Positions 5,391 to 16,641 of a DNA stretch of 49,960 nt are shown here, piece by piece. This DNA is from an uncultured Eubacteriales bacterium (lineage in GTDB: Bacteria > Bacillota > Clostridia > Oscillospirales > Acutalibacteraceae): positions 1-49,960 of the forward strand of contig ONCX01000011.1 of the NCBI GenBank assembly GCA_900316455.1, given 5' to 3'. A program made the position numbers and the translations under genes. Below the pieces are notes generated by a model. The model had not been told where the DNA came from. It ran no database searches and saw nothing but the letters and a program-made list of their open reading frames with translations. Each line of letters starts with the position of its first letter. Positions within the stretch are counted from its first letter, which is position 1.

Positions 5391-8174
5391 TTATTTGTGA
5401 AGGCATTTGAAATAGACATAAAGCTTAGGATATTCCCATACCGCGAGCTGAATGAGCAGCAGAGCGACCACAGCGAGCCATTCCCTGAGTGAAAGCGCGG
5501 CAAATCCCATCAGGCGGGCAATCCATGGAAGAGCGATCATCGTGGCGGTTACGGCAGCAGTTGCGGCAGCGCCGACGAGCAGCCTGAAATTCCGGAATAT
5601 TCCGGCTGATATCATTGGCAGCTCCGAGCGCGAACAGAGCGCGTGCATAGGAAGACCAAGTCCCAAAATCGCAAATGCCATTGTAAGACCTGCTTTTTCG
5701 CCGCCGGAGTCAAGCCTGAAATATCCGCTGCCGATCATATAAGCAATTACTGAATTGAATAATATGTACAGACCGGCTATCCAGATGCGGTAGCTTTCAA
5801 ATTTCCCTATCAGTATGCCGTTATTCTGATCAGGCATTCTTTTCATCACGTACTTGTCGGAATGTTCATACGCGAAGCCGGGCTGAACAATAAGGAAAAG
5901 CATAAGGTTGAGAATTGTAAGCGGCAGCAGACCAAGCATATTCTCTCTGAAAACGATGCCGCCAAAAATAAGCAGAAGAGTTTCGGCAAGGGAACATGTA
6001 ACGCTGAATTCGGTGAGATTTTTGAGATTTTTTCTTATGCGTCTGCCCTGTCTTATCATTGAGGCGATATTTGAAAAGCTTGCTCCCGACAGGGTGACGT
6101 CCGCAGCGTCAACGGCGACGTCTGTAGCGGTTGATTCAACCGAGCAGCTTATGTCCGCTTTGTGAAGAGCGGGAGCGTCGGTCATTCCTCCGGCTGTCAT
6201 AAGAACGCTTGCGCCGTTTGACTGCCAGCTTTTTATAATCCTGACCTTGTCCTCCGGCGTGACACGCGCAAAAACGGAATATCTGCCGATAAGCTTTTTA
6301 AGCCTTTTATCGGGGATTTTTACGAGTTCATCGCCCGTCATAACAGATTCGCCGTCGCCGAGTATGTGCAGCCTGCGGGCAAGCGAAGCGGCTGTTTCGG
6401 GGTGATCTCCGGTTATCATTACAGTGCGTATTCCGGCTTCAGAACATGTATCTATAGCATTTCCGACGTCTTCGCGGCACGGGTCGTCAAAGCCAAGAAG
6501 ACCGACAAAGCTGAGATCATGCTCTATCGTTTTGGGAGTTACCTTTTCCGGAAGCTGAATTAGCGATTGAACTGCGACTGCGATCACCTTTAATCCGTCT
6601 TTAAACATAGCTGACGTCTGACGTGCTATTTCAATTTCGTCAGTCTCGGCACATATTGAAATAAGTGCTTCTGGAGCGCCTTTTGTAACCGTCATGTAAA
6701 CGCCGTCCACGTTGTAGACAACGGTCATAAGCTTGCGTGACGCGTCAAACGGAATCTCAGCGCAGCGCGGGTATTTGTCGAGAAGCTCGCCGATATCCCC
6801 GCCGTTGTTGACATACGCGGTTATTATGGCTTCTTCTATAGGGTCACCGGCGATTTTTTCATTTTCAGCGTCGGTGTCGAAGCTTATCCGGCGGTCGCAG
6901 CAGAGAACGCAGCATCTCATCAGATATTTCATGTCGTCAGACCAGAAGCCGTCGCTGACGTTTGCGGGAGAATCTCCCGCGGGCCAAGCCCTCAGCAGGG
7001 TAAGTCTGTCCTGAGTGAGAGTGCCGGACTTATCGGTGCATATCACAGAAGTACAGCCGATAATTTCGGTTTTTTTGAATCGGTGAAGCATTATTCCGTC
7101 TTTACGCAGAGTGGCTATTCCCTTTGCGATAGAGCGCATAATGTTCTGTGGCAGTCCCACGGGAACAATGCAGACCACAAGGGTGAGGAAAAAAATAATT
7201 CCGTCAAAAATTGCGCCTGTGTCTGAATGTACCGTTGAGATCCTGAGGTAATCGGGAATAATTTCAAAATTCTCGGTTACAAACTTTTTTATGTCTGAGA
7301 ATCCTAAAGAAATTCTGCTGAAATCAAGCCTGACGGCGTAGACGGACAGGACGGAAATGACGGTGCATAGCACAAGCCATACGCCGAAAGCTCTTATGCT
7401 GAAAGCGTTTTTGACCAGCGGAGTACGGTTGCTGATGAGCGCGGGACGTTTGCCGTGCTTTTTTGCAAGCTCGGTGTGCGAGCCTGTATCCGTAACCATC
7501 ATGACAGCACGCCCTGTTACGGCAACCGTACCGGCGTAAGCCATATTGCACCGCTGACTGACAGGGGTTTCCTCTGCGAGGACGGCGTTGGCGTCTTTAA
7601 GAGCGGGCGTATCGTCCCCTGTTATAACGCGCTCGTCGCACATGAATGAACGTGTGATAAGCAGTCTGCCGTCAGCCGGAATGATATCGCCAACTTCGAT
7701 TTGTATAATGTCGCCCGGGACAAGGTCGTCAGTCATTATTTCCTTGATAATACCGTTTCGTCTTACCCTGACAAATGTAAGCGCGTTGCGTTTTATATCA
7801 ACTATAGTGCTGTTTGCTGATATTTCTCTGGCGGCGCGTACAATATCAAGAATGAGGGCGCAAAGCATAAGTACTCCGGCGTAAATGAGATTAAGTCTGA
7901 ACCGGCTCATTTCCGCGTGACCGTACCGGTAATTGAAAATGTTTACCGCCAGCGAAAGGGATGAAATTAGAATCATAATAATACTCAGCGGAGACAGCAG
8001 CTTGCCAATGAATACCGGAAAGGCTGACCTTTTGCGAGTGGTGAACATTGTATTAATTCCGAAAGCGGCTCTTCTGACGCCGGCGTTAAGATCTGTGAGT
8101 CCCTTTTTAGGCTGAGAGTCAAGCTCTCTGGCGACATTTTCTTTTGTTGAACTGTGCCATATCATAAATACCAA
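5391..8174 (-). CDS. Divergent P2-like cation-transporting P-type ATPase
   Basis: A 927-residue membrane protein with the overall P2-ATPase layout: N-terminal region, two membrane helices, A-domain, helices M3/M4, P and N domains, and a C-terminal helix bundle. The phosphorylation loop is CTDKSGTLT (Asp381), with a nucleotide-domain KGAPE (498-502), MITGD (586-590) and the conserved Lys of VTPEDK (643). Key motifs are altered: TGES is TGDD (185-188), PEGLP in M4 is PVGLP (338-342), GDGxNDxP is AGGMTDAP (661-668), and M6 lacks the usual Asn/Thr/Asp triplet. The ion and even transport competence are therefore doubtful. A good promoter is present at 8228-8256. It is monocistronic, divergent from a secreted protein gene. 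Confidence 0.85.
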   Translation of the reverse strand: MVFMIWHSSTKENVARELDSQPKKGLTDLNAGVRRAAFGINTMFTTRKRSAFPVFIGKLLSPLSIIMILISSLSLAVNIFNYRYGHAEMSRFRLNLIYAGVLMLCALILDIVRAAREISANSTIVDIKRNALTFVRVRRNGIIKEIMTDDLVPGDIIQIEVGDIIPADGRLLITRSFMCDERVITGDDTPALKDANAVLAEETPVSQRCNMAYAGTVAVTGRAVMMVTDTGSHTELAKKHGKRPALISNRTPLVKNAFSIRAFGVWLVLCTVISVLSVYAVRLDFSRISLGFSDIKKFVTENFEIIPDYLRISTVHSDTGAIFDGIIFFLTLVVCIVPVGLPQNIMRSIAKGIATLRKDGIMLHRFKKTEIIGCTSVICTDKSGTLTQDRLTLLRAWPAGDSPANVSDGFWSDDMKYLMRCCVLCCDRRISFDTDAENEKIAGDPIEEAIITAYVNNGGDIGELLDKYPRCAEIPFDASRKLMTVVYNVDGVYMTVTKGAPEALISICAETDEIEIARQTSAMFKDGLKVIAVAVQSLIQLPEKVTPKTIEHDLSFVGLLGFDDPCREDVGNAIDTCSEAGIRTVMITGDHPETAASLARRLHILGDGESVMTGDELVKIPDKRLKKLIGRYSVFARVTPEDKVRIIKSWQSNGASVLMTAGGMTDAPALHKADISCSVESTATDVAVDAADVTLSGASFSNIASMIRQGRRIRKNLKNLTEFSVTCSLAETLLLIFGGIVFRENMLGLLPLTILNLMLFLIVQPGFAYEHSDKYVMKRMPDQNNGILIGKFESYRIWIAGLYILFNSVIAYMIGSGYFRLDSGGEKAGLTMAFAILGLGLPMHALCSRSELPMISAGIFRNFRLLVGAAATAAVTATMIALPWIARLMGFAALSLREWLAVVALLLIQLAVWEYPKLYVYFKCLHK

Positions 8175-10538: not shown

Positions 10539-11408
10539 ATGGAATGGAGAGACCGCGGAGGAAATTATATAAGCGAGGGAGACGAAGGAAATAAATCCCT
10601 GAAATTTTTATATGAAACAAGGATCGGCGGGGTTCTGCTGGGGCTGCTTATAAGAAAGCCGGTTTCAGATATTGCCGGTTGGTTCATGCAGCGCAGGATT
10701 TCCGCGCTGTGGATAAACGGCTTTATCAGGAAAAATCATATTGATATGAGCGGGTATGAAAAAAGAAAATTCAAATCGTTCAATGATTTTTTCACGCGGA
10801 GGATACTGCCGGAATGCCGTCCGGTGGACAGTGATCCGAAAAGATTTGTTTCTCCGTGCGACTGTAAGCTGACTGTATTCAGAATATCGAATGATTCCTC
10901 ATTCATCATAAAAGGCGGCAGCTATACCACGGAGCAGCTTCTTAGGAACGGTGAGCTTGCAAGGGCGTATTCGGGAGGAACGATGCTTGTTTTCAGGCTG
11001 ACGGTTGACGATTACCACAGATATTGTTATCCTGACGGCGGCGAAAAAGAGGAGAATGTGCATATTCAGGGAGTCTATCACACGGTGAATCCCATCGCGT
11101 TCAGGAATCACGCCGTATTCAGGGAGAATACCCGTGAATATACGATTCTTCACAGCGACAATTTTGGAGACATTGTCATTATGGAGGTAGGAGCAACGCT
11201 TGTTGGGCGGATATCCAATCTCCACGGATCATGCCGCGTGGAAAAGGGTGAGGAAAAAGGTCACTTTGATTTCGGAGGAAGCACTGTGATAATTCTTGTC
11301 AAATCAGGAGTTCTGAAAATAGATGAAGATATTCTCAGGAACAATTCGCAGGGATTTGAAACCGTGATAAAATACGGTGAAGGCATAGGCACAAAACAGA
11401 ATTCGTGA
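10539..11408 (+). CDS. psd: Phosphatidylserine decarboxylase proenzyme
   Basis: A 289-residue member of the PSD family, converting phosphatidylserine to phosphatidylethanolamine at the membrane. It has the family's ordered motifs: FNDFFTRR (about 82-89), SPCDCKLT, the catalytic LTVDDYHRYCYPDGG with Asp and His, HTVNPIAF, and a C-terminal GGST (about 246-249) corresponding to the LGST self-cleavage site that yields the pyruvoyl group, so an active enzyme is expected. The start has GGGGAG 8 bases upstream. It follows the CHAP/Ig gene by 28 bp and ends in a terminator-like hairpin. No pssA-type synthase gene is visible nearby. Family certain. Confidence 0.92.
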   Translation: MEWRDRGGNYISEGDEGNKSLKFLYETRIGGVLLGLLIRKPVSDIAGWFMQRRISALWINGFIRKNHIDMSGYEKRKFKSFNDFFTRRILPECRPVDSDPKRFVSPCDCKLTVFRISNDSSFIIKGGSYTTEQLLRNGELARAYSGGTMLVFRLTVDDYHRYCYPDGGEKEENVHIQGVYHTVNPIAFRNHAVFRENTREYTILHSDNFGDIVIMEVGATLVGRISNLHGSCRVEKGEEKGHFDFGGSTVIILVKSGVLKIDEDILRNNSQGFETVIKYGEGIGTKQNS

Positions 11409-11431
11409 ATTTCAATACCATAAAAACGTTG

Positions 11432-11475
11432 ATCTCCAAGCCATTTCAAATTAAAGGAATGGTTTGGAGATTTTC
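11432..11475 (+). terminator. Terminator-like hairpin after psd
   Basis: A 14-bp stem with one G-T pair (11432-11445 with 11458-11471, ATCTCCAA to TTGGAGAT) and a 12-base loop is followed by a short T run. It separates psd from the promoter at 11511-11538. Confidence 0.65.
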
Positions 11476-11510: not shown

Positions 11511-11538
11511 TTGATTTTTTTGCATAATATGTTATAAT
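11511..11538 (+). promoter_or_regulatory. Promoter of the DegT-like/FHA-ABC/kinase operon
   Basis: TTGATT and TATAAT are separated by 16 bases, with an extended -10 TG (TGTTATAAT). It lies about 20 bases before the DegT-like start and downstream of the psd hairpin. Confidence 0.65.
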
Positions 11539-11557
11539 TAACTTTGGAAAGTGGGCG

Positions 11558-12574
11558 GTGAATATGGCAGATGAAAAAATTGAATTATTCTGCGACAGGA
11601 TAAAAGAACGGCTCGGGGCAGCCGAGTGCATGTCTTTTTCCGGCAGGGTAGAGGGGATTACCGCGCTCTTTGACGCTATACAGCTTGGAAATAAGGACTG
11701 TGTTTATCTGTCAGCGCTGTCTCCGGGGTACATTGTTAGGGCTATACTGGCGTGCGGGGCAGTTCCCGTATTCTGCGACGTTACTGCGGACGGATTTGTC
11801 TTGGATCACAGGGCGCTTGCGGAGGCAGTTAGGCAGACTGTCAACGAGGATAAGCTTTATCCGCGTGCCGTCGTAGCGGATCACTTCATGGGTATGCCGT
11901 GTTCCATGAGCGCGATTCTCGATCTTTGCGACCGTATGGGACTTATTCTCATTGAAAACTGCGGAAACGGCTTCGGCTGCGCGTGGGATCGGACGGAATG
12001 CGGACATTTCGGAGATTATTCCCTGATTTCGCTCGGAATATCTTCAGTTTTCGGCACAGGAGGGAGCGGGTGTCTTGCGGTTGCAAACGGCAGGAATGAG
12101 CTTGCCGGACTTATCGGAAACTGTGACGGCAGCGGCTGGGATCCGATTGACGGCATTTACGCCGACAGGCTTCTCGCTTCATTGGATACAATTCCCGACA
12201 GATTCGCCCAGGCTGAAGCCATGCTTGATGTGATAAGGGAGGCTGTGAGCGAATCTGATTTCTGGCTGTGCAGAGGCGGAGGAAAGCAAAAAAGCTCATG
12301 CTCCGGCACGGTCGTTGTGGCGAGGACCGAGAAGCTGTGTGAAGCTGCTTTAGATATGTTTGCCGCCGCGGGGCTGTCGGATTACATCAGGAAAGTTCAC
12401 GTTCATCACAGAGCATGCTTTGAACGCGGCTGCCGGGGATATAAAACTCTTGAAAATGCTCCGGCACTTGCTCCGAGGGCGTTTACCATCGATATATACG
12501 GAGCGCTGAATTCCGGTAAAGCGGAGGATGTAAAAAAATGCATTGAATTTATTGCGAGCAATATTCACTCGTAA
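11558..12574 (+). CDS. DegT/DnrJ/EryC1-fold protein lacking PLP catalytic residues
   Basis: A 338-residue protein with the fold-type I layout of the DegT sugar aminotransferase family (YLSALSPGYIVRAILACGAVPVFCDV, then a VVADHFMGMPC segment). The cofactor residues are replaced: the PLP-ring Asp of the usual EDAAQ is Asn132 in ENCGN, and the Schiff-base Lys before the GEGG-like turn (here GTGGSG) is Ser, about residue 160. It is also shorter than most family members (360-390). It probably does not transaminate in the usual way; a binding, regulatory or dehydratase-like role is possible. It opens an operon with an FHA-ABC exporter 36 bp downstream, and has its own promoter. Fold call good, function unknown. 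Confidence 0.7.
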   Translation: MNMADEKIELFCDRIKERLGAAECMSFSGRVEGITALFDAIQLGNKDCVYLSALSPGYIVRAILACGAVPVFCDVTADGFVLDHRALAEAVRQTVNEDKLYPRAVVADHFMGMPCSMSAILDLCDRMGLILIENCGNGFGCAWDRTECGHFGDYSLISLGISSVFGTGGSGCLAVANGRNELAGLIGNCDGSGWDPIDGIYADRLLASLDTIPDRFAQAEAMLDVIREAVSESDFWLCRGGGKQKSSCSGTVVVARTEKLCEAALDMFAAAGLSDYIRKVHVHHRACFERGCRGYKTLENAPALAPRAFTIDIYGALNSGKAEDVKKCIEFIASNIHS

Positions 12575-12610
12575 TGCCGCAAAAAAATAAAAAAACGGAG
12601 GACTGGTAGC

Positions 12611-15028
12611 TTGGAAAACAATAATATCAATATGAATCCTGATAATTCCGCGGCAGTGGATTTTGACGGAAGCACAGGATGCTCGGTCACAATATTCGAT
12701 TACAGTCATGTGCCCGACGAGTACAATCTGATGGCGTTTGGCAAGGAGACAGTGACATTTGGACGCGACGACACAAACGATATAATGATAGCGTCGGATA
12801 TCGTGTCCCGCAGGCATGGACACTTCACCATAAGCGAAGGCCGCTGCTATATTGCCGACGACAACAGCACAAACGGAATATATGTAAATGGTAAGCGTAT
12901 AACTCAGATTGAGCTTAAAGACGGAGATTCCATTCGCATAGACGACATGGAGCAATCCTGCTACAGCGGAATAAGCATGGTTTTTTCCGACAAGAATTCC
13001 GGAGCCGACTGGAACAGCTTCCAGCTTTCCAAGGACATTACCGTCATAGGATCGGACAGCGGCTGCGATATTTCTATCGACGATCCCAAGATGAATCCCA
13101 AAGCCGCCGAAATTCACATAGAAGGCGCTACGAGCTATGTTCTTAAATTCCTCGGATCCGTCGGCGAAATTATGGTTAATAATGAGGTCATAGCCGGTGA
13201 CAGTCATTACCTCAAGGACGAGGACGTTTTTGTTATAGGAACGACTAAATTCTCCTATTCCAAGGGATATATCTATTATAAGCAGGAAAAGTCAGGACTT
13301 TCGATAGAGCTTGTTAATATTTCCAAATTCGTTCATCAGGCGATGGGCAAGGATAAAAAAATTCTTGACGACACAAGCATGCTGATACTTCCGGGAGATT
13401 TCGTTGCAATAGTCGGCGGTTCAGGCTCAGGAAAATCCACCCTTATGAACTGCATAAACGGCTTTGACAAGCCGACAACCGGCAAGGTTCTTGTCAACCG
13501 CCGCGATCTTTATGAAAATTATGACGAGATGAAATACAGCATAGGCTATGTTCCGCAGCAGGATATAGTTCACGAAAACCTCACCCTGATAAGTATGCTG
13601 CGTTACGTCGCAAAGCTGAGGCTGCCCGACAATACCAGCCGTGCCGAGCGTGAGAAGCGGGTCGCGGAGGTTCTTCGCACAGTGGAGCTGACAAAGCATA
13701 AGAACAAGCTTATCCGCAAGCTCTCCGGCGGACAGAAGAAGCGCGCTTCGATTGCGGTGGAGCTTATGAGCGATCCGGGACTTTTCTTCCTCGACGAACC
13801 GTCCTCCGGTCTTGACCCCGGAACCGAGCGCACGCTTATGCACACCTTAAAGCGCATGAGCGACGAGGGCAAGACGGTCATAATGATCACCCACAATACA
13901 AACAACATACATCTCTGCGACAAGCTGATATTCCTCGGCGCGGGCGGATATGTGGCATTCTGCGGAAATCCAGCCGATGCGCGTTCATTCTTCGGCATAC
14001 CCAAGGATCAGGATCTCACCGACGCATATACCATGGTTGAGGAGGATCCAAAGGGCTGGGAGGAAAAATTCAACGCTTCTCCGTACAACAAGATACAGAC
14101 CATAGGCGAACTTAAAACTCCGCCGATGACCTCGGAGCAGAAAAAAGAACGTAAGAAGAAGCTTAAAAAGGAAAATCATAAGTCGTTCCTGCACCAATTC
14201 GGCGTGCTTTCCCAGAGATATATGAATCTCATATGGAACGACAAGACGAGACTGCTTTTCTTCCTGCTTCAGGGACCGCTTATCGCATATCTTTTCTCAT
14301 TCGTAACAGTCGAGAACACGTTCAAATCGTATTTTGACGCGCAGTCCATGCTCTTCTGCCTTTCCTGCGCGGGTATCTGGGTAGGTCTGATGAATTCCAT
14401 TCAGGAAGTGTGTAAAGAGCGCAATATTGTGCGGCGAGAATACATGTCCGATGTGAGACTAAGCTCATATATCTGTTCAAAGCTTGCCGTTCAGACGCTT
14501 CTTGCGATAGTGCAGTGCGGTCTGATGCTCGCGGTATTTGTGTATACCATAGGAAAGCCGGATAAGGGCGTTATCTTTGATAATTCCACTGTTGAAATGA
14601 TGATAACCCTTGTGCTTATCACCGTGTCGGCGTCGTCGCTGGGACTTCTTGTTTCCTCGCTGGTGAAGAATACTGACCGCGCAATGGTATTTGCTCCGAT
14701 AATCCTTATACCTCAACTGCTGTTTTCCGGAATACTCTTCAAGCTTGAGGGTGTGACGGAGGTTCTGTCATGGGCATGCGTGAGCCGCTGGGGAATGCAG
14801 GCTTTCAGCAATACCGCCAATCTCAACGGAGTGCTGTGGAACAGTCTGTCGCTCAAATACAAGGATCATGATATGCTGCTTCAGGCATACGAGCTGAACA
14901 AGAATTCACTGTATGCACATTCGGTGAAAAATCTTCTGCTCGCGTGGGGCGTTATGCTGCTGACTATTGTAATATTCTGCTTTATAAGCGCAACCGTGCT
15001 GCGTAGTGTTAAAAATGACAAGCGATAA
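12611..15028 (+). CDS. FHA-domain ABC transporter (ABCG-type half exporter, Rv1747-like)
   Basis: An 805-residue membrane protein. FHA1 (about 40-100) has the phosphothreonine-binding elements GRD (51-53), SRRH (66-69) and NSTNG (85-89). FHA2 (about 138-210) is degenerate in these positions. The ABC ATPase has Walker A GGSGSGKST (269-277), signature LSGGQ (371-375), Walker B LFFLDE (391-396) and an H-loop ITHN. The C-terminal half is an ABC2-type domain with about six membrane helices. The start is TTG, nine bases after GGAGG. The layout matches mycobacterial Rv1747, which is controlled by kinase PknF. The overlapping kinase gene downstream suggests the same control here. The exported substrate is unknown; a lipid or glycolipid is plausible. 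Confidence 0.88.
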   Translation: MENNNINMNPDNSAAVDFDGSTGCSVTIFDYSHVPDEYNLMAFGKETVTFGRDDTNDIMIASDIVSRRHGHFTISEGRCYIADDNSTNGIYVNGKRITQIELKDGDSIRIDDMEQSCYSGISMVFSDKNSGADWNSFQLSKDITVIGSDSGCDISIDDPKMNPKAAEIHIEGATSYVLKFLGSVGEIMVNNEVIAGDSHYLKDEDVFVIGTTKFSYSKGYIYYKQEKSGLSIELVNISKFVHQAMGKDKKILDDTSMLILPGDFVAIVGGSGSGKSTLMNCINGFDKPTTGKVLVNRRDLYENYDEMKYSIGYVPQQDIVHENLTLISMLRYVAKLRLPDNTSRAEREKRVAEVLRTVELTKHKNKLIRKLSGGQKKRASIAVELMSDPGLFFLDEPSSGLDPGTERTLMHTLKRMSDEGKTVIMITHNTNNIHLCDKLIFLGAGGYVAFCGNPADARSFFGIPKDQDLTDAYTMVEEDPKGWEEKFNASPYNKIQTIGELKTPPMTSEQKKERKKKLKKENHKSFLHQFGVLSQRYMNLIWNDKTRLLFFLLQGPLIAYLFSFVTVENTFKSYFDAQSMLFCLSCAGIWVGLMNSIQEVCKERNIVRREYMSDVRLSSYICSKLAVQTLLAIVQCGLMLAVFVYTIGKPDKGVIFDNSTVEMMITLVLITVSASSLGLLVSSLVKNTDRAMVFAPIILIPQLLFSGILFKLEGVTEVLSWACVSRWGMQAFSNTANLNGVLWNSLSLKYKDHDMLLQAYELNKNSLYAHSVKNLLLAWGVMLLTIVIFCFISATVLRSVKNDKR

Positions 15029-15902
15029 TTCATTTGAAGGCAAAAAAGACATTTCATGCGGAAACGGCGTTATTATAAACGGCGTCGCTTTCCGCATTGG
15101 TGAAATGATTCATCATGGCTCCGACAGCCGGATCTTCTCCGCTGAATTAATTGAAAGCGGCGGGGATTCGGCTTTTGTCATAAAACGCTATTGCTGTCCG
15201 CGTGACAGTGAAATATGGAAAAAGGCAATGAGAGAAATCGAAGCCGGAATAATGCTGCGCCGTTGTCCGAATATTGTCCCGATGCTTGGTTACAGTGTTC
15301 TTTCAGGGACGGATAGCGCAGATCATGAGATATTTATACTGTTTGACCGAGTGGAATGTCTTGATGAAATGAGAATTCATGACACACGGCTCATAATGGA
15401 AATGTGCCGCGACATCTGCAACGCTCTTGAATATATGCGAAAAAGGCGATTGATACACTGTGACATAAAGCCGTCGAATATCTATTACGACGGAGTTAAA
15501 TGGCTGCTCGGCGACTTTGGGAGCGTATGCGTTTCAGGCGAAGCGCCGGATTATTGCAGCGAGGGCTATTGTTCTCCCGAAGCGATCCGTGGGGAGCGGT
15601 GCGACGTCCGTTCGGACATCTATTCTCTCGGCATATCCATGTACAGGCTTTTAAGCGGCGGGAGACTTCCGTTTTGCGCCGTTCCGTGCAGCGAAACGGA
15701 CGAGGCTTCCGTATATCAGGCGATAGGAAGAAGACTGAGCGGAGTGGAAATAACGCCGATACCGGATATTTCCGAAGATGTAAACAGTCTGCTGCTGAAA
15801 ATGTGCCGTTTCGACAGTAGAGAGCGGTTCAGAAAACCCTCCGAGGTTTCAAAGCGGGCTGAGAATATAATAAGATCGGACTCCTCGTCAGACAATGTAT
15901 AA
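15015..15902 (+). CDS. Soluble Ser/Thr protein kinase (Hanks type)
   Basis: A roughly 295-residue eukaryotic-like kinase without a membrane segment or PASTA repeats. A glycine-rich loop variant (GEMIHHGSDSRIFSA), the ATP-anchoring Lys in FVIKRY, the catalytic HCDIKPSN, DFG in LGDFGSVC and SPE of the activation segment are all present, so activity is expected. HRD is HCD, making it a non-RD kinase. The gene overlaps the end of the FHA-ABC exporter gene by 14 bp; ATG at 15015 is preferred, GTG at 15006 is an alternative. Translational coupling and the FHA domain of the neighbour suggest that it phosphorylates the exporter or a partner. That link is inferred. Confidence 0.85.
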   Translation: MTSDNSFEGKKDISCGNGVIINGVAFRIGEMIHHGSDSRIFSAELIESGGDSAFVIKRYCCPRDSEIWKKAMREIEAGIMLRRCPNIVPMLGYSVLSGTDSADHEIFILFDRVECLDEMRIHDTRLIMEMCRDICNALEYMRKRRLIHCDIKPSNIYYDGVKWLLGDFGSVCVSGEAPDYCSEGYCSPEAIRGERCDVRSDIYSLGISMYRLLSGGRLPFCAVPCSETDEASVYQAIGRRLSGVEITPIPDISEDVNSLLLKMCRFDSRERFRKPSEVSKRAENIIRSDSSSDNV

Positions 15903-15996
15903 AAATTTTTACATTATTATCATAGAATTCTCTGTATAATAATGTATAATAATTAGGTTAATATGATTTAGCTTGTTTTTACTGCGGGGTGAGCTT

Positions 15997-16641
15997 TTGA
16001 ATTATACCGAGAAGGAAAAAAAGGGCATTGACAAGGTAGAGCGCATGAACAGGCTTTTTGACAAGATACTGATGCCGGCTGTCGGAATTCTGATTATTAT
16101 GCTGCTTATTTCCTTCACGATTAATAAATACAGGGAAAAATTCGGCTCAGGAGACAGCTTATCCGCTAAGGAGGTATACGCGGAGGAGGAACCCCGCGTA
16201 TTTACGCTGAGAAGAAGCTTGCTCTCCGGTTACGGGGAACACGAAAAGGAATTCGAGTCATACGGTTACAAGCCGGTGGAGGGGTATTCGTATGCTCTGT
16301 CGCTTTGCAAGCAGGTGGACGATGAAATGTCCATATTCCAGTTTGCCGACGGCACGCTCGGCGAGCTGACTATAATCAATTATATTCCAAAGGAAAAGAA
16401 ATCTCCTTATGATTCGTTGTCGCTTGCCGTATCATCGCATAAGCTTATAAACGTAACAGCGAAAAGCGGGGGAGAAAAGCATACGGTCACATTCCTGTCG
16501 AGTGATTTTTCAAAATACAGTTCCGATGATGAGGAACAGTTCGATTCGCTGATGAAGCTCACCGATATGGAGGAAATATCCTCTGTGTATGAAATATTCG
16601 AGACAGATATTATAAATTTATCCAAAGTGATAGACGGCTGA
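15997..16641 (+). CDS. Single-span membrane protein of unknown function
   Basis: About 214 residues. The likely start is TTG at 15997 behind GGGGTGAG; a longer reading from TTG 15973 has no ribosome binding site. A charged N-terminus is followed by one membrane helix (ILMPAVGILIIMLLISF, about residues 20-38) and a polar extracytoplasmic domain of about 170 residues rich in Glu, Ser and Lys, without recognised motifs. TATAAT-like sequences at 15935-15950 could start transcription, but no -35 is convincing. It lies 94 bp after the kinase gene and may belong to the same functional group. Confidence 0.6.
   Translation: MNYTEKEKKGIDKVERMNRLFDKILMPAVGILIIMLLISFTINKYREKFGSGDSLSAKEVYAEEEPRVFTLRRSLLSGYGEHEKEFESYGYKPVEGYSYALSLCKQVDDEMSIFQFADGTLGELTIINYIPKEKKSPYDSLSLAVSSHKLINVTAKSGGEKHTVTFLSSDFSKYSSDDEEQFDSLMKLTDMEEISSVYEIFETDIINLSKVIDG

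Follow-up and report, generated by a model that had tools for sequence, protein, structure and literature searches.

A kinase gene, an FHA-bearing ABC exporter gene and a DegT-fold pseudoenzyme gene form a conserved unit in a genus of Acutalibacteraceae

Whether a Ser/Thr protein kinase, an ATP-binding cassette (ABC) exporter with two FHA domains and a DegT-like protein that are encoded side by side work as one signalling unit, and what a DegT-like protein would do in such company, is the question raised by a locus on contig ONCX01000011.1 of an uncultured Eubacteriales bacterium (assembly GCA_900316455.1). The whole stretch of 49,960 nucleotides is referred to below as the window; the host genome consists of 69 contigs (2.19 Mb in total, completeness 88.6%). 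The three genes lie on the forward strand in the order DegT-like, exporter, kinase. A preliminary description of the sequence had read them as a kinase-controlled exporter operon resembling the mycobacterial PknF–Rv1747 system, and analysis of reading frames and Pfam matches confirmed the three genes and the 14-bp overlap between the last two. Named records of near relatives are metagenome genomes tagged Clostridia, Clostridiales or Ruminococcus sp., originating in two cases from goat stomach compartments.

Conservation and anatomy of the exporter and kinase genes

The exporter was searched for in 60 genomes: that of the window, 17 further ones from its genus and 42 more. It was found in all 17 same-genus genomes with 68–92% identity, in some of them as fragments at contig ends. 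The 42 other genomes contained a single full-length relative (G056, 42% identity); in the remaining 41, no match was better than E 1e-34, a value typical of ABC ATPases in general. Wherever the genus loci contain the relevant sequence, the DegT-like gene precedes the exporter gene (15 of 15) and the kinase gene follows it (16 of 16). Joint conservation of kinase and exporter in related genomes was one of the points on which the preliminary description had staked its reading beforehand, and it held. In addition, exporter and kinase frames overlap in all 17 genomes with the junction, window included, by 14 bp (n = 11), 4 bp (n = 5) or 23 bp (n = 1), the lengths depending on the start codon chosen by the script. 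The flanks vary within the genus and the trio stays constant; at one locus (L041, identical to L098) both flanks are changed and the trio is intact. Since some loci were retrieved twice (L037 and L099 are another example), counts use one locus set at a time. Two of 13 loci returned (L045, L046) were set aside as 25% matches to the ATPase in other phyla, and the DegT-like gene of L043, masked by a reverse frame in the flank comparison, is present in the locus comparison. The ratio of nonsynonymous to synonymous changes (dN/dS, Nei–Gojobori) was 0.03–0.06 for the exporter and 0.09–0.17 for the DegT-like protein (nine pairs each), figures that are rough because the proportion of synonymous differences is high and, for several pairs, approaches saturation. 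DegT-like, exporter and kinase genes make up a conserved unit with a common orientation, in which the exporter and kinase genes overlap.

According to Pfam, the exporter contains two FHA stretches, ABC_tran and ABC2_membrane (residues 48–110, 136–215, 252–398 and 529–733), and it has the single-chain order of an Rv1747-kind exporter: FHA, FHA, nucleotide-binding domain (NBD) and ABC2-type transmembrane domain (TMD). Comparison of residues 1–233 with solved structures gave 20 matches, two of which, 6cah (first and best match of FHA1, E 8e-8) and 6ccd (fifth), are FHA domains of Rv1747, namely FHA-1 and FHA-2; the likeness to a kinase-linked Rv1747-type exporter that had been proposed is borne out. 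As had also been noticed from the sequence alone, FHA1 and FHA2 differ in their phosphothreonine-binding residues. FHA1 of the window keeps GR, SRRH and STNG, and all 15 full-length genus exporters have GR, SR[RK]H and STNG there, so that each possesses an FHA domain with phosphothreonine-binding residues. FHA2 of the window has none of the three. In the genus, its Ser-x-x-His and NG are gone in 15 of 15 proteins (the most divergent, G009, retains HA), and its Arg is kept in 11 and lost in 4, including the window. FHA2 is canonical by eye in 12 of 16 aligned distant relatives, which makes loss of the second reader a feature of the genus, in progress rather than complete; in two distant proteins (G766, G567) it is FHA1 that is degenerate, also by eye. 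The two domains are separated by about 25 residues, with no gaps among the genus rows and no Thr in the window's protein, which weakens the earlier idea of Rv1747-style phosphorylation of a linker. A candidate phosphosite is Thr497, which lies between NBD and TMD in an insert peculiar to the genus and is Thr in 14 of 15 genus exporters.

The kinase matches Pkinase (89 bits). By eye, each of the 17 genus kinases has the catalytic Lys, HxD, DxG and xPE of Hanks-type Ser/Thr kinases. HxD reads HCD or HGD in the genus, and HCD in the window, in place of HRD, which makes these non-RD kinases. No transmembrane (TM) segment was predicted in any of the 17 by a plain hydropathy cut (19 residues, mean > 1.8). 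PknF has a TM segment, and the genus kinases are not receptor kinases of its type; outside the kinase fold they have only short, variable ends. The soluble, non-RD character stated in the preliminary description is thus upheld.

Kinase linkage in distant Clostridia

More distant exporters were collected at E 1e-60 from 394 genomes of the order and 391 of the class (the sets overlap), with 12 matches in each, the window's own genome included each time. The tally comprises 17 other genomes with a full exporter and both FHA regions (17 loci among L068–L087), and 10–18 kb around each exporter were inspected. One of these exporters (L072, genome G426) was counted and is not among the 16 aligned rows. 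Split, partial or cut exporters (L076, L077, L078, L093, L094) were excluded, a kinase adjoining the exporter only in L076, as were the split paralogs of the genus (L089–L092, L095).

The distant exporters share the architecture described above at 38–46% identity. A kinase gene is found near 11 of the 17, all in other Clostridia families, against about 0.5 expected, and the Pfam model PF00069 concurs; in L073 it lies on the opposite strand and in L080 more than 5 kb off. The background of 68 kinase matches per ~40 Mb corresponds to a chance of 0.03 per 18 kb, and under random neighbourhoods 11 of 17 would have a probability of ~2e-13, a value to be taken as a guide only because related genomes are not independent. 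The pairing of kinase and exporter is therefore of a known kind, and the earlier suggestion that it would be new in this lineage is not supported. PP2C phosphatase matches occur near 8 of the 17 exporters, and the DegT-like family in none of the 17 stretches. The 14 kinases at the 11 loci each have one predicted TM segment, as do two further kinases next to split exporters (L076, L089), several of the hydropathy values being barely above the cut. Nine of these 16 were scanned and gave PASTA, LRR, NPCBM, F5/8, TPR, NHL or DUF matches besides the kinase, some of them under the curated cut-off.

Some related arrangements were seen as well. In L080 (G617), a VWA–FHA protein is encoded at 6401–7954 immediately ahead of the distant FHA exporter, with a kinase and two PP2C matches upstream on the same strand. 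Four same-genus genomes (L090, L091, L092 and L095 in G006, G012, G004 and G001, respectively) contain a second, split system of an FHA–NBD protein and a separate permease; in L091 and L092 a PP2C gene lies ahead of it, and L090 shows a weak PP2C match alongside. In another same-genus genome (L089, G016:C38), a receptor-type kinase, PP2C, FHA–NBD protein and permease form a cluster.

The three genes might be merely co-expressed, with FHA1 reading phosphothreonines from beyond the trio and the kinase acting mainly elsewhere, for example on an FHA–FtsW protein. In favour of this, the window's own genome has four kinase matches and a second FHA protein fused to an FtsW/RodA domain, and no kinase was found in the stretch at 6 of the 17 distant exporters. 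The frame overlap throughout the genus and the strong linkage across other Clostridia speak against it, and we regard it as unlikely. Apart from the exporter, the fusion protein (FHA with FtsW/RodA/SpoVE, 756 aa, G000:C42:4424-6694, L088:4424-6694) is all that matches FHA at E 0.001 in this genome, which is 88.6% complete.

The DegT-like pseudoenzyme and the proposed switch

The DegT-like protein matches DegT_DnrJ_EryC1 with 81.9 bits over residues 6–177 only. The AlphaFold2 model built from 12 sequences has a mean predicted local distance difference test score (pLDDT) of 79.5, and its best 50 Foldseek matches are DegT-type and related aminotransferases (E 5.3e-21 to 8gyh_A; query-based TM-score, TMq, 0.78 to 4qgr_B). 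The fold of a DegT aminotransferase is present and the lysine that binds pyridoxal phosphate (PLP) is absent: in alignment with solved enzymes its position is Ser163, and it is Ser or Thr in 16 of 16 proteins. The GT phosphate motif is replaced by R30–V31 (residue 30 is Arg or Lys in 14 of 16, and the adjoining Glu32 is invariant), and Pro or Ser stands in place of the stacking aromatic. Of the 16 proteins, 13 retain the ring-pairing Asp; the window's protein has Asn instead. The roles given to these four elements are those known from PLP enzymes, and the loss of motifs argues against PLP binding. Catalytic lysine and other cofactor-site residues are lost, yet the protein is under purifying selection. 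A decaying pseudogene was also considered and is ruled out, the frames being open in 16 of 16 and dN/dS low.

At E 1e-30, 150 genomes of the family gave four DegT-like matches, two of them full length (the window's own and one same-genus genome) and two of about half length in other genera (E 1.3e-34 and 5.4e-32); 341 genomes of the class gave the window's own genome only. No strong full-length match outside the genus was thus found in these 150 and 341 genomes at that threshold. Further invariant residues are H281, H283, C287, W236 and Q244-K245-S246. H281-x-H283-x3-C287 (16 of 16) and C292 (15 of 16) lie in a stretch of the model that is mostly of low confidence, several near-invariant Cys occur elsewhere, and a metal or redox site is possible.

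It is quite unlikely, in our estimation, that the DegT-like protein has remained an enzyme, or is a sugar-nucleotide processor, which makes or modifies the exported glycan by a lysine-free mechanism. The modelled fold and the Foldseek matches, the frequent ring-pairing Asp, the many invariant polar residues and the HxHx3C motif would suit such an activity. It is opposed by Ser or Thr at every lysine position, the vanished GT phosphate motif, the Asn of the window, the confinement of full-length matches to this genus, and the fact that neither of the other two trio genes is a glycan-biosynthesis gene.

The reading that we favour, at about even chances, is that the trio is an operon for a half-size ABC exporter switched by phosphorylation, to which the pseudoenzyme would be a soluble, non-catalytic partner. 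From the observed anatomy, linkage and selection, together with what is known of the families and of Rv1747–PknF, we infer that the kinase would write, FHA1 would read and the exporter would act. The soluble kinase would phosphorylate a Thr within the trio, whether its own, one in the DegT-like protein or Thr497 of the exporter. FHA1 would then bind the phosphothreonine in cis or in the neighbouring subunit, and the exporter would be gated or clustered. The DegT-like protein would relay a signal to the kinase or FHA1 from the cytosol, perhaps as a sensor, a signal-input part possibly played in distant relatives by the kinases' own extra domains. By analogy, an envelope lipid or glycan seems the likeliest substrate. 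It is improbable that FHA1 serves only for bringing the kinase, once autophosphorylated, to the exporter and that the DegT-like protein is a structural helper without sensing: kinases are known to dock FHA proteins through autophosphorylation sites, but this kinase has little sequence beyond its fold, and within the genus both ends vary and are short.

Several observations weigh against the phosphorylation switch. The kinase evolves fast (dN/dS 0.22–0.32 in eight pairs by the same rough estimate), and six distant exporters have no kinase nearby, as noted. Thr497 is replaced by Arg in the most divergent genus member, and two Thr where the NBD ends, T470 (15 of 15) and T474 (14 of 15), match it in conservation. 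In the DegT-like protein, no invariant Thr was found outside the old active-site loop; T167, which belongs to the loop, is kept in 15 of 16. The trio contains no recognised phosphatase gene, the five PP2C matches of the genome lying elsewhere, and the structure model of the exporter is too poor for use (mean pLDDT 37.6). Against the sensing step, too, stands the lack of a conserved Thr outside that loop, and so does the kinase tree, where the bare kinases join the receptor kinases found with distant exporters at a support of 83/45, so that a common origin is no more than possible.

The boldest step is to assume that the pseudoenzyme took over sensing once the kinase had lost its membrane part. 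In this possible but doubtful scenario, a receptor kinase, a phosphatase and an FHA exporter would have made up the ancestral module, which in this genus would have lost its membrane sensor, phosphatase gene and second reader, and gained a dead sugar aminotransferase as a cytosolic sensor of nucleotide sugars (or of metal or redox state) that steers export via the kinase and FHA1.

Limits of the unit and comparison with known systems

The features of the locus are collected in Table 1. The single promoter proposed earlier has a consensus-like counterpart ahead of the trio; the region holds 17 comparable sites where shuffled sequences give 9.5 ± 3.5, which makes that site weak evidence on its own. 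A phosphatidylserine decarboxylase gene (10539–11408) does lie just upstream, as the preliminary description said, separated from the trio by a terminator-like hairpin. The segment 11425–11485 folds with −27.8 kcal/mol (z −7.04; 0 of 200 shuffles equally good), a pattern scan did not pick the hairpin up, and it is likely the upstream boundary of the trio. In the eight genus loci with more than 5 kb ahead of the DegT-like gene (L036–L039, L041–L044), the decarboxylase gave no match above 40 bits. Not conserved and set apart by the hairpin, it is ruled out as a fourth member of the unit.

Table 1. Positions of the features at the locus, numbered from the first letter of the window
Feature	Position	Strand	Basis or remark
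Terminator-like hairpin, 17 pairs, loop of 8; four-U run at the 3' end half within the stem	11431–11472	+	Folding compared with shuffles
Promoter-like site TTGATT-16-TATAAT, TG preceding the −10 element	11511–11538	+	10 of 12 consensus matches; consensus match only
DegT-fold pseudoenzyme, 338 aa; catalytic Lys position is Ser163	11558–12574	+	GTG start, or ATG at 11564
FHA-FHA-NBD-TMD exporter, 805 aa	12611–15028	+	TTG start
FHA1, canonical phosphothreonine-binding residues	12752–12940	+	FHA model and motif alignment
FHA2, without GR, SxxH and NG in the window's protein	13040–13240	+	Matched by FHA model
NBD; Walker A, signature (LSGGQ) and Walker B intact	13364–13804	+	Pfam and alignment
Thr497, candidate phosphosite in genus-specific insert between NBD and TMD	14099–14101	+	Alignment; phosphorylation presumed
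ABC2-type membrane domain	14195–14809	+	Pfam
Soluble non-RD Hanks-type Ser/Thr kinase, 295 aa	15015–15902	+	Pfam, alignment, hydropathy
Overlap of exporter and kinase frames, 14 bp	15015–15028	+	Translational coupling presumed

The product of the gene at 15973–16641 is small, has by eye a hydrophobic segment at its N terminus and matches no Pfam family above cut-off. Together with an NlpC/P60 gene it is kept 3' of the trio in most genus loci at hand. It was rejected as a member of the unit: present in 10 of the 11 loci L034–L044, it is missing from L041, where the trio is kept, and it travels with the NlpC/P60 gene.

What is new here is the combination of a DegT pseudoenzyme, a bare kinase and a single-reader state. 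Titles and abstract openings of the open-access literature, among the matches listed, describe no unit of this sort in Clostridia, subscription journals being mostly outside that search. With the genomic linkage counted, the association of kinases and FHA-bearing ABC exporters reaches from mycobacteria into Clostridia, and the gating of an exporter by FHA domains can be addressed in an anaerobic gut lineage. Should the conserved DegT pseudoenzyme prove to be a signalling partner, this would be an unusual reuse of a sugar-enzyme fold.

Compared with the DegT/DnrJ/EryC1/StrS sugar aminotransferases, the DegT-like protein shares the fold and lacks the catalytic Lys, the GT phosphate motif and the stacking aromatic. 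The distant Clostridia loci share the exporter architecture and, in 11 of 17 stretches, the kinase; unlike the unit described here, their 14 kinases have a predicted TM segment and often extra domains, and a DegT-like gene was found in none of the 17 stretches. According to PMC5549992, the soluble protein Rv2623 interacts with FHA I of Rv1747, an interaction aided by phosphorylated T237 and reduced by T237 mutation. This is a precedent for a soluble protein reaching the exporter's FHA I with phosphothreonine help; Rv2623 is, however, a universal stress protein, whereas the fold of the partner here is that of DegT proteins and a conserved Thr is lacking beyond the old active-site loop. The closest parallel is Rv1747–PknF of Mycobacterium tuberculosis, in which two N-terminal FHA domains are followed by NBD and TMD in one chain, the kinase gene belongs to the same operon (PMC3908365, PMC9312465) and PknF is a positive modulator of Rv1747 (PMC3908365). 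The single-chain architecture and the kinase gene alongside are common to both systems. The mycobacterial FHA domains are joined by a disordered linker (PMC9312465), in contrast to the ~25 residues here, and the exporter lacks this feature expected of an Rv1747 ortholog. Furthermore, pknF lies upstream of Rv1747, whereas the kinase gene here is downstream and overlaps the exporter gene, its product has no TM segment, FHA2 is degenerate, and a DegT-like gene is added to the pair.

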